Positions 6,026 to 8,889 of a stretch of DNA of 64,000 bases are shown here, in pieces. A program made the position numbers and the translations under genes. Numbering within the stretch: position 1 is the stretch's first letter; every line of letters starts with the position of its first letter. The notes under the pieces are model-generated. The model was not told the origin of the DNA, searched no databases, and saw nothing but the letters and a program-made list of their open reading frames with translations. The DNA is from Gemmatimonadaceae bacterium (GTDB lineage: Bacteria; Gemmatimonadota; Gemmatimonadetes; Gemmatimonadales; Gemmatimonadaceae): assembly GCA_020846935.1 (NCBI GenBank), contig JADLCY010000006.1, positions 124,001 to 188,000 of the forward strand, written 5' to 3'.

Positions 6026-6631
6026 ATGCCCTCGCTCCCGATCGCACCCCGGCTCCCCGCGACGATCCCTCGACGTCGGTCGCGCACACGTCGCCTCATC
6101 GGGACGTGGGGGCTGCGCGCCTTCGGTTGGCGCATCGTCGGGGACGTGCCGGACGCGCCACGTCTCGTGCTCATCGTGGCGCCGCACACGTCGAACTGGG
6201 ACTTCGTGATCGGATTCCTCGGCTATCTCGCGCTGGAACTCGACACGACGTGGTTCGGCAAACACACCCTCTTCCGGTGGCCGCTGGGTCCACTGTTCCG
6301 CCACTTCGGTGGGATTCCGATCGAGCGCGGTCGTTCGGCAAACGTCGTCGATGCGTATGTGGAGGAGTTCCGGCGGCGCGATCACATGCTCCTCGCCCTG
6401 GCGCCCGAAGGCACGCGACGGCGCGTGACGGAGTGGAAGTCGGGCTTCTATCACATCGCCAGCGGGGCCGGCGCGCTCATCCTGCCCGTGGCGCTCGATT
6501 ACTCCGCACGGCTGATCCGCATCTTCCCGTCGCTGCGGCCCGGCGGCGACATCGCCCGCGACATGGAGCATCTCCGTCGCCACTTTACTGCCTCGATGGC
6601 GCGCGACCCTTCAGCCTACGACGATCGATAG
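6026..6631 (+). CDS. PlsC-like 1-acylglycerol-3-phosphate acyltransferase family protein
   Basis: This 201-residue protein carries the glycerolipid acyltransferase motifs in order: block I HTSNWD (the HX4D catalytic pair, about residue 55), a GGIPIER block III (about 95-101), and the block IV-like PEGTR (about 131-135). Such enzymes transfer acyl groups to lysophosphatidate or related lipids at the inner face of the cytoplasmic membrane. It is shorter than PlsC (about 240 residues) and lacks a clear N-terminal membrane helix, as in the small 'PlsC-like' group whose substrates are often unknown. The start at 6026 is the first ATG of the frame; the next gene begins after the riboswitch. Confidence 0.85.
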   Translation: MPSLPIAPRLPATIPRRRSRTRRLIGTWGLRAFGWRIVGDVPDAPRLVLIVAPHTSNWDFVIGFLGYLALELDTTWFGKHTLFRWPLGPLFRHFGGIPIERGRSANVVDAYVEEFRRRDHMLLALAPEGTRRRVTEWKSGFYHIASGAGALILPVALDYSARLIRIFPSLRPGGDIARDMEHLRRHFTASMARDPSAYDDR

Positions 6632-6715
6632 CCGCGATGGCCGCGCGATCGGGGCTCTGGCAGTCCGCGTGGGACAACCCCTTTGCCCACGACCCGACGC
6701 CTGCGCTATCCTTCC

Positions 6716-6802
6716 CGGTGACCGGGGTGCCTGCGCCGCTGGTGCGCGCTGGCTGAGAAACACCCGCTGAACCTGATCCGGTTCGTACCGGCGTAGGGAG
6801 TC
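6716..6802 (+). promoter_or_regulatory. TPP (THI-box) riboswitch
   Basis: All the invariant parts of the thiamine pyrophosphate aptamer are present in order: GGGGTGCC at 6724-6731, a variable P3 arm, GGCTGAGA at about 6751-6758, ACCCG, then GAACCTGATCCGG with a short P5 arm and GCGTAGGGAG at 6791-6800. The closing P1 helix looks short (GAC with GTC). The GGGAG at 6796-6800 is both the 3' conserved strand of the aptamer and the only good Shine-Dalgarno for the ATG at 6808, seven bases away. TPP binding could therefore block translation directly. No separate expression-platform terminator is visible before the gene. Confidence 0.95.
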
Positions 6803-6807
6803 CAACG

Positions 6808-8889
6808 ATGTTTGATGGTCCCATGGCGCGCGCGTCGCGTCCGGGCGCGTGCGTGACGCTCGCGGCCCTGCTCCTCCTTCATCCGCTCCGCCTCGCCGCG
6901 CAGGCCGACAGCGCTGGCGCCTCCCGCGATTCGACGCGGACGATTGAGCGAGTTCTCGTCACCGCCTTTCGGGCATCGGCGCTCGCGCCGATCGCCGAGA
7001 CCACCGTGCCCCGGAGCACGATCACTCGCCGCCAGTTCGGGCAGGACGTTCCGCTCCTCCTCGTTGGTGCCGTCCCTTCGATCACCGCGCACACCGAGAC
7101 AGGCACCAACTGGGGATACAGCTATCTCCGGCTGCGTGGCATGGATCAGACGCGCATCAACATCACGATCGACGGCGTGCCGTTGAACGATATGGAGGAC
7201 CAGGTCCTCTATTTCGCCAACATCGCCGACCTCATGTCCAGCGTGCAGAGTGTCCAGGTTCAGCGTGGGGTCGGCACGAGCTCCGCAGGCACGGCATCGT
7301 TTGCTGGTTCGGTGAACTTCGAGACCGTGCCGGTCGGTCGGCGCGACGCGGAGGGCGAGCTCCAGCTCCAGGTGGGGTCGTTCGGCTCGCGACGCGTCAG
7401 TGCGTCGTTCCGCGGGGGAATCCCCGGGACCCGCCTCTCCGTGTACGGGCGCGCCGGTGCGGTCACGACCAACGGATACCGCGACCACAGCGGAGTTCGC
7501 GGAGGCTCGGCGTTCGTCGGCGCCGGGTGGTTCGGCGACCGCGATGTACTCAAGCTCACGACGCTGGTTGGCGTGCTGCGGGACACCTTGTCGTACACCG
7601 GTGCCACGCTCGAAGAGTTGCAGACGAACCGGCGGTTCAACCCGCTCGATCCGTCGGAGCGTGACGCTTTTGCCCAGCAGATGGTTGCCCTGTCCTACAC
7701 GCGCCTTTTCGGCGCCGCCACGTCGTTCACGACCACGGCCTATCGCAATTCGGCGGCCGGCAGCTACGACTACCTGGCCGCACCGGATCGCTATCGCTTC
7801 AACCTCGATCACTGGTGGTACGGGGTGACCAGCGCGGTTAACCACGCCGTCGGCGACTGGAGGTTCAACCTCGGCGTCAATGGAAACACCTATGCGCGCG
7901 ATCATCGGGGCTACCTCGAGCCATCCACGACGCTCTATGAGAACACCGGGCACAAGCAGGACGTGAGCCTCTTTGGCAAGGCGTCGCTCGCGGCAGGCCC
8001 GCTCCGGTGGTTCGGGGACGTGCAGGTGCGCCACACCCGATTCCGGTACACGCCCGACGCGGCCGCGGGCATCGGTGAACGCGCCATGGACTGGACGTTT
8101 CTCAACCCGAAGATCGGCGTGACGGTACCTCTCCGCGCAGGCATCACGGCGTTTGCTTCTGTCGGTCGCACCGCCCGTGAGCCGGCGCGCAGCGATCTCC
8201 TGGCCGGGGACGACGACCTCAATGCGGGCAACGTCGAAGACTACGGAGACTTCGGCCGCGTGCGTCCGGAGTCCGTTCGCGACCTCGAGCTGGGCGTGTC
8301 GGTGGCACGTTCACGCTGGGACCTGTCGGTGAACCTCTACGACATGAACTTTCGCAACGACATCGCGCGCATCGGTGCTCCGACGGCGTCGGGTTCGGTG
8401 CTGCGGCGCAACGTTGGCGCGAGCTATCGACGCGGCATCGAGGTCGACGCTCGGTGGCAGCCGATCGAACGGCTGGCGCTCGGCGGCAATGCGACGTGGA
8501 GCACCAACCGGATTCGCGCCTTCACGGACTCCTCGCGCGGCGTCCCGGTGGTGCGGCGCAACGTGGAACCCCTGCTGACGCCGCGACTGCTCACCACCCA
8601 GCGTGCGGACCTCACGGTCACGAAGTCGCTGCTTGCCTCGATCGAGGGCCGTTATCAGTCGAGGGCGTTTCTCGACAACACCGGCAGCGTGGATCGTGTG
8701 CTTCCGGCGTACTACCAGCTCGATGCCGCGGTGCGCGTCGTGCGGGCGCGCTACGCGCTCACCGTGCGTGCGGTGAACCTCGCCAACAACGATCAGTTCG
8801 GGAGCGGGTCGGTGTCGTCGTCGGGGACCGTGCGGTACTTCGTGCTTCCGGCGCGCTCGCTCTTCGCGACCTTCGACGTCGCGTTCTGA
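6808..8889 (+). CDS. TonB-dependent outer-membrane receptor under TPP riboswitch control
   Basis: The protein has 693 residues; a second ATG at 6823 begins a cleaner signal peptide (MARASRPGACVTLAALLLL). After it comes a TonB-box-like region, the plug domain (SYLRLRGMDQTRINITIDGVPLN and VQVQRGVGTSSAGTASFAGSVN, about residues 45-175) and a long beta-barrel ending in the terminal aromatic residue expected of outer-membrane proteins (SLFATFDVAF). No N-terminal carboxypeptidase-like domain is present, unlike SusC proteins. Such receptors pull scarce ligands across the outer membrane using TonB energy. The riboswitch directly upstream makes thiamine or a thiamine precursor the likely ligand. No inner-membrane thiamine transporter lies next to it. 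It converges on the zinc-ribbon gene with only 3 bp between stops. Confidence 0.95.
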   Translation: MFDGPMARASRPGACVTLAALLLLHPLRLAAQADSAGASRDSTRTIERVLVTAFRASALAPIAETTVPRSTITRRQFGQDVPLLLVGAVPSITAHTETGTNWGYSYLRLRGMDQTRINITIDGVPLNDMEDQVLYFANIADLMSSVQSVQVQRGVGTSSAGTASFAGSVNFETVPVGRRDAEGELQLQVGSFGSRRVSASFRGGIPGTRLSVYGRAGAVTTNGYRDHSGVRGGSAFVGAGWFGDRDVLKLTTLVGVLRDTLSYTGATLEELQTNRRFNPLDPSERDAFAQQMVALSYTRLFGAATSFTTTAYRNSAAGSYDYLAAPDRYRFNLDHWWYGVTSAVNHAVGDWRFNLGVNGNTYARDHRGYLEPSTTLYENTGHKQDVSLFGKASLAAGPLRWFGDVQVRHTRFRYTPDAAAGIGERAMDWTFLNPKIGVTVPLRAGITAFASVGRTAREPARSDLLAGDDDLNAGNVEDYGDFGRVRPESVRDLELGVSVARSRWDLSVNLYDMNFRNDIARIGAPTASGSVLRRNVGASYRRGIEVDARWQPIERLALGGNATWSTNRIRAFTDSSRGVPVVRRNVEPLLTPRLLTTQRADLTVTKSLLASIEGRYQSRAFLDNTGSVDRVLPAYYQLDAAVRVVRARYALTVRAVNLANNDQFGSGSVSSSGTVRYFVLPARSLFATFDVAF

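Follow-up and report, generated by a model that had tools for sequence, protein, structure and literature searches.

A minimal TPP riboswitch at the ribosome-binding site of a TonB receptor gene in Gemmatimonadaceae: probable translational control of thiamine uptake

Organization of the Locus

The window, by which we mean the whole 64,000-nucleotide stretch of DNA that was analysed, comes from a Gemmatimonadaceae bacterium (GCA_020846935.1, contig JADLCY010000006.1, positions 124,001 to 188,000). It carries a TPP riboswitch aptamer immediately followed by the gene of a TonB-dependent outer-membrane receptor. The features of the locus are collected in Table 1.

Table 1. Features of the riboswitch-receptor locus, in window coordinates.
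Feature	Position	Strand	Basis or remark
Acyltransferase-family gene (upstream context, outside the switch)	6026-6631	+	ORF, domain
-10 promoter box TATCCT	6707-6712	+	TANNNT conserved across phylum loci
TPP riboswitch aptamer (RF00059)	6713-6805	+	63.2 bits; helix pairs
P1	6720-6722/6800-6802	+	Can pair; GAC/GUC, 3 bp only
P2	6723-6726/6763-6766	+	Can pair
P4	6772-6775/6794-6797	+	Can pair; CCUG/UAGG
P5	6778-6781/6788-6791	+	Can pair
Shine-Dalgarno AGGGAG	6795-6800	+	P4 3' strand, junction and first P1 base; anti-Shine-Dalgarno match
TonB-dependent outer-membrane receptor	6808-8889	+	693 aa from ATG 6808; plug domain, predicted fold

The Rfam TPP riboswitch model RF00059 matches the forward strand at 6713-6816 with 63.2 bits (E = 4.9e-10), against a gathering cut-off of 54.3 bits. 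The match covers the whole model (1-105), giving a covariance-model score above the cut-off across the entire aptamer, and is the only one in this 4.5 Mb genome. The optional P3a is missing. In 12 dereplicated receptor leaders with the same direct-ATG layout, P2, P4, and P5 are all paired, the one exception being a P4 pair at the end of the helix; in P1, the first three pairs form in 11-12 of these leaders. The first-pass annotation, made from the sequence, had placed a complete THI-box at 6716-6820, and the search bears this out to within a few bases; the low score that it had named as evidence against an aptamer was not obtained. The riboswitch is real and well supported, while TPP binding itself is predicted.

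A consensus sigma-70 scan of the region gives no full match, and the -10 box emerged instead from a comparison across loci. The motif TANNNT begins 15-22 nt 5' of the aptamer core GGGG in 98 of 112 dereplicated loci of the phylum, whereas equally wide background windows contain it in 1-5 of 112. By this comparison, the transcript is predicted to start at ~6718-6720, at the first P1 bases and thus at the 5' edge of the aptamer rather than inside or after it, the placement that the first-pass annotation had regarded as damaging. The 5' leader would then be little more than the aptamer, with promoter, aptamer, ribosome-binding site, and start codon predicted to abut.

The AGGGAG motif lies 7 nt from the ATG at 6808 and is complementary to the anti-Shine-Dalgarno CUCCUU if a single G-U pair is allowed. 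The 16S rRNA of the host was not found in its assembly and the anti-Shine-Dalgarno was therefore taken from family members, where the usual end GGATCACCTCC is present in 16 of 30 genomes. Upstream of 6808, no anti-Shine-Dalgarno match other than AGGGAG was found. Only 5 nt separate the end of P1 (6802) from the start codon, and a search of 6560-6960 revealed no terminator-like site. These results agree with the earlier claims that GGGAG is the sole Shine-Dalgarno of this gene and that there is no space for a separate expression platform.

Distribution in the Gemmatimonadota

The TPP riboswitch scores above the cut-off in 220 of 298 Gemmatimonadota genomes, mostly once in each. We examined 132 loci, a few of which are the same place twice, in a phylum set drawn from the best-scoring matches. 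The gene 3' of the aptamer encodes a receptor in 58 of these loci, ThiC in 65, ThiM in 4, TenA in 3, and PnuT in 1, with 1 left without assignment. An in-frame ATG or GTG lies 5-10 nt after AGGGA in each of the 21 close receptor relatives whose 5' end is intact. Chance is excluded as the source of the arrangement because the riboswitch recurs across the phylum and the layout in every intact close relative. The same order of AGGGA and start codon is also common to many thiC leaders of the phylum. For other receptor and thiC genes, P1 is longer and a terminator-like hairpin is often present. The receptor tree places the direct-start layout almost wholly in one well-supported clade, alongside variants carrying an upstream ORF, and the other expression platforms in the other clade.

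In the upstream-ORF variants (L039, L092, and L093), the ribosome-binding site of the aptamer starts an Arg-rich ORF of 23-27 codons located at +7 to +91, +9 to +81, and +7 to +85 after AGGGA, respectively. The TGA stop of each overlaps the receptor ATG (ATGA), which suggests translational coupling. Elsewhere in the phylum, a second TPP riboswitch within one genus (group g4; L059, L064, L084, and L037) precedes a thiM-thiE-thiD-like salvage operon, and in other families the riboswitch lies 5' of tenA-like genes (L026, L031, and L119).

Many receptor leaders also share a 7-8 bp G+C hairpin within the signal-peptide codons, roughly between +17 and +36 relative to the start codon. Its sequence differs between leaders (for example L020 vs L065), and the version in the window (6825-6857) is weak. 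Under synonymous shuffles its folding energy is not in excess; its pairs show a slight excess (Stouffer Z of 3.3, among related sequences).

Proposed Mechanism of Control

Taken as a whole, the locus is probably a minimal TPP riboswitch that directly represses translation of a TonB receptor for thiamine uptake. For the switch, the best-supported reading is that it masks the ribosome-binding site directly, and for the receptor, that it serves in thiamine uptake. Transcription would begin at the 5' edge of P1. At high intracellular TPP, the aptamer would close and the 3' strands of P4 and P1 would sequester AGGGAG, leaving the receptor mRNA untranslated, as its anatomy and the known behaviour of the class suggest. 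At low TPP, P1, with its 3 bp, and the P4 strand would be less stable, and the ribosome could capture AGGGAG and initiate at the ATG. Such a switch can shut off uptake when vitamin B1 is plentiful.

Folding of the RNA adds a layer of complication to the low-TPP state. In a nearest-neighbour model, adopting the aptamer fold without ligand costs ~8-12 kcal/mol in the window, compared with a median of 3.6 kcal/mol in the receptor relatives. The 5' strand of P3, CCUGCGCC (6730-6737), is fully complementary, with one G-U pair, to GGCGUAGG of P5/P4 (6790-6797), and this pairing forms a strong alternative fold that covers AGGGAG as well. Accordingly, the ribosome-binding site is not opened up in the ligand-free ensemble; the comparison of folds with and without the aptamer constraint, proposed in the first-pass annotation, yields no open state, and the ligand-free fold hides the site too. 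The model omits tertiary contacts and co-transcriptional folding. The earlier proposal that the ligand directly hides the ribosome-binding site is thus supported by the overlap of aptamer and site and by the missing terminator but is not demonstrated by the folding, and the switching step is deduced from the architecture.

Alternatively, control could be transcriptional, with a G+C hairpin in the first codons or Rho stopping transcription when TPP is bound, and with the overlap of the ribosome-binding site being secondary. Other receptors of the same family (for example L051, L078, and L057) do carry terminator-like hairpins and T runs 3' of the aptamer, and a 7-8 bp hairpin is possible ~26 nt past the start codon in many receptor leaders. 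On the other hand, 6560-6960 of the window lacks a terminator-like site, and the G+C hairpins past the start codon lack a T run. Their pairing also follows for the most part from the Arg/Ala-rich signal peptide that these codons specify (synonymous shuffles predict 135 pairs, and 153 were observed). We therefore consider transcriptional control unlikely.

The Receptor and its Cargo

The first-pass annotation called the gene a TonB receptor, and the product is indeed a TonB-dependent transporter as judged from its domain and predicted fold. The sequence contains the TonB plug domain PF07715 (E = 2.4e-11), and a structure model of moderate confidence (mean pLDDT 59) is matched by Foldseek to Fiu, PqqU/YncD, FecA, and FhuA with E values below 1e-20. 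A sequence search against solved structures found no relative.

Searches of the host genome for ThiC, ThiG, ThiE, and thiamine pyrophosphokinase (TPK) found none of them, while ThiL is present, so that, from its gene content, the host seems unable to make vitamin B1. Among the sampled genomes of the phylum, ThiC is missing in 34 of the 37 whose receptor is TPP-controlled and in 73 of the 261 others (Fisher p = 4e-14, indicative only, given the relatedness of the genomes and a set chosen by score). Within one phylum, TPP control is placed on thiC in producers and on an uptake receptor in non-producers.

The likely cargo that the receptor would carry through the outer membrane is thiamine or a thiamine phosphate, the host lacking the biosynthetic genes. 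Precursors are unlikely as cargo because there is no ThiE to join them, and only intact thiamine or its phosphates would be usable. Of the two substrates suggested in the first-pass annotation, thiamine is therefore the better supported. A likely vitamin substrate can in this way be proposed for a receptor family that sequence searches label only as a TonB receptor.

A different cargo such as an iron chelate, with the receptor merely co-regulated by TPP, is suggested by the nearest family models and folds, which are siderophore, citrate, copper, and PQQ receptors. The family-model scores are, however, far under the curated cut-offs, the receptor is the sole TPP-controlled gene of a genome negative for ThiC, ThiG, and ThiE, and PnuT is linked to the receptor in relatives, which together make another cargo quite improbable. 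A true start farther downstream, at the in-frame ATG at 6823 or later, with AGGGAG no more than a conserved aptamer block, would fit the poor conservation of the first 15-20 residues and the plausible signal peptide that also begins at 6823, but is very improbable given that no Shine-Dalgarno precedes that ATG and that all intact close relatives start in frame 5-10 nt after AGGGA amid variable sequence.

A Putative Thiamine Salvage Route

With thiamine uptake as the preferred role of the receptor, the next steps can be sketched from gene content and from the gene neighbourhoods of relatives. The host genome encodes a PnuC/PnuT protein followed by a NadR-type kinase domain. Its pnuT does not adjoin the receptor gene. 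In most close relatives, a PnuT-kinase pair is divergent from and adjoins the receptor, in three genomes (G025, G016, and G195) the pair lies downstream of it, and in another (G254) it stands behind its own TPP riboswitch. The pair of a PnuC/PnuT-like permease and a NadR kinase-domain protein, which relatives link to TPP control, was observed at L137 1498-2719 (G000 C8; the kinase at 2120-2719), L073, L080, L088, and L090.

Thiamine pyrophosphokinase was found in 0 of 99 genomes of the family, and the NadR kinase-domain protein is a candidate thiamine kinase where the family has no detectable thiamine pyrophosphokinase. After crossing the outer membrane, thiamine would probably pass through the PnuT-like permease and be phosphorylated by the NadR-type kinase and ThiL. 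We give roughly even weight for and against an uncharacterised salvage route of this kind in thiamine-requiring Gemmatimonadaceae, consisting of the riboswitch-controlled receptor, the PnuT-like permease, the NadR-type ribosylnicotinamide-kinase-domain protein acting as thiamine kinase, and then ThiL. This route around the receptor is a more interesting lead than the riboswitch itself.

Comparison with Known Systems

The type of switch and its mechanism are already known, whereas the receptor family and the bacterial group are barely described. In the literature found on thiamine in Gemmatimonadota, only its synthesis is discussed (PMC10469786). The earlier view that thiamine uptake is little described in this group is in keeping with the literature found, but the mechanism is established elsewhere and TonB receptors of this kind are known in Bacteroides.

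Riboswitch-controlled leaders with translated ORFs are represented by ppe2 of Mycobacterium tuberculosis, where a B12 riboswitch has a translated leader (PMC11260477). The resemblance is to the loci L039, L092, and L093, in which a short ORF lies between the aptamer and the receptor gene and runs with its stop into the receptor start; the riboswitch class differs, and the window is without such an upstream ORF.

Thiamin TonB transporters next to PnuT were predicted by Rodionov 2002, as cited in PMC2771747. As far as that citation goes, the assignment here is of the same nature, resting on riboswitch and gene neighbourhood with a predicted substrate in both cases, and the earlier predictions concern other lineages. 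A studied counterpart is OMthi (BT2390) of Bacteroides thetaiotaomicron, a TonB receptor by a TPP riboswitch that, together with PnuT, has genetic support for thiamine uptake (PMC5613172). The window receptor likewise adjoins a TPP riboswitch and shows the OMthi-like combination of riboswitch and PnuT link, the latter coming from relatives rather than from the window; the likeness is one of context. B. thetaiotaomicron is a thiamine producer with pnuT-tnr3, in which OMthi mRNA changed little with thiamine (PMC5613172). Unlike it, the window host is without ThiC, ThiG, ThiE, and TPK and has a NadR-type kinase.

Direct translation attenuation has been described for TPP riboswitches (Barrick and Breaker 2007, PMC2258182), one of the three classes that use it most often, chiefly in Actinobacteria and Cyanobacteria. 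As in that class, the ribosome-binding site of the receptor gene coincides with the conserved, purine-rich block on the 3' side of the aptamer, and the locus combines a ribosome-binding site inside the conserved aptamer and an adjacent start codon with neither a terminator nor a separate anti-Shine-Dalgarno platform. Unlike that class, the arrangement seen here is widespread in Gemmatimonadota and the -10 box of the promoter also abuts the aptamer. With promoter, sensor, and ribosome-binding site abutting, this would be a very short natural translational riboswitch.
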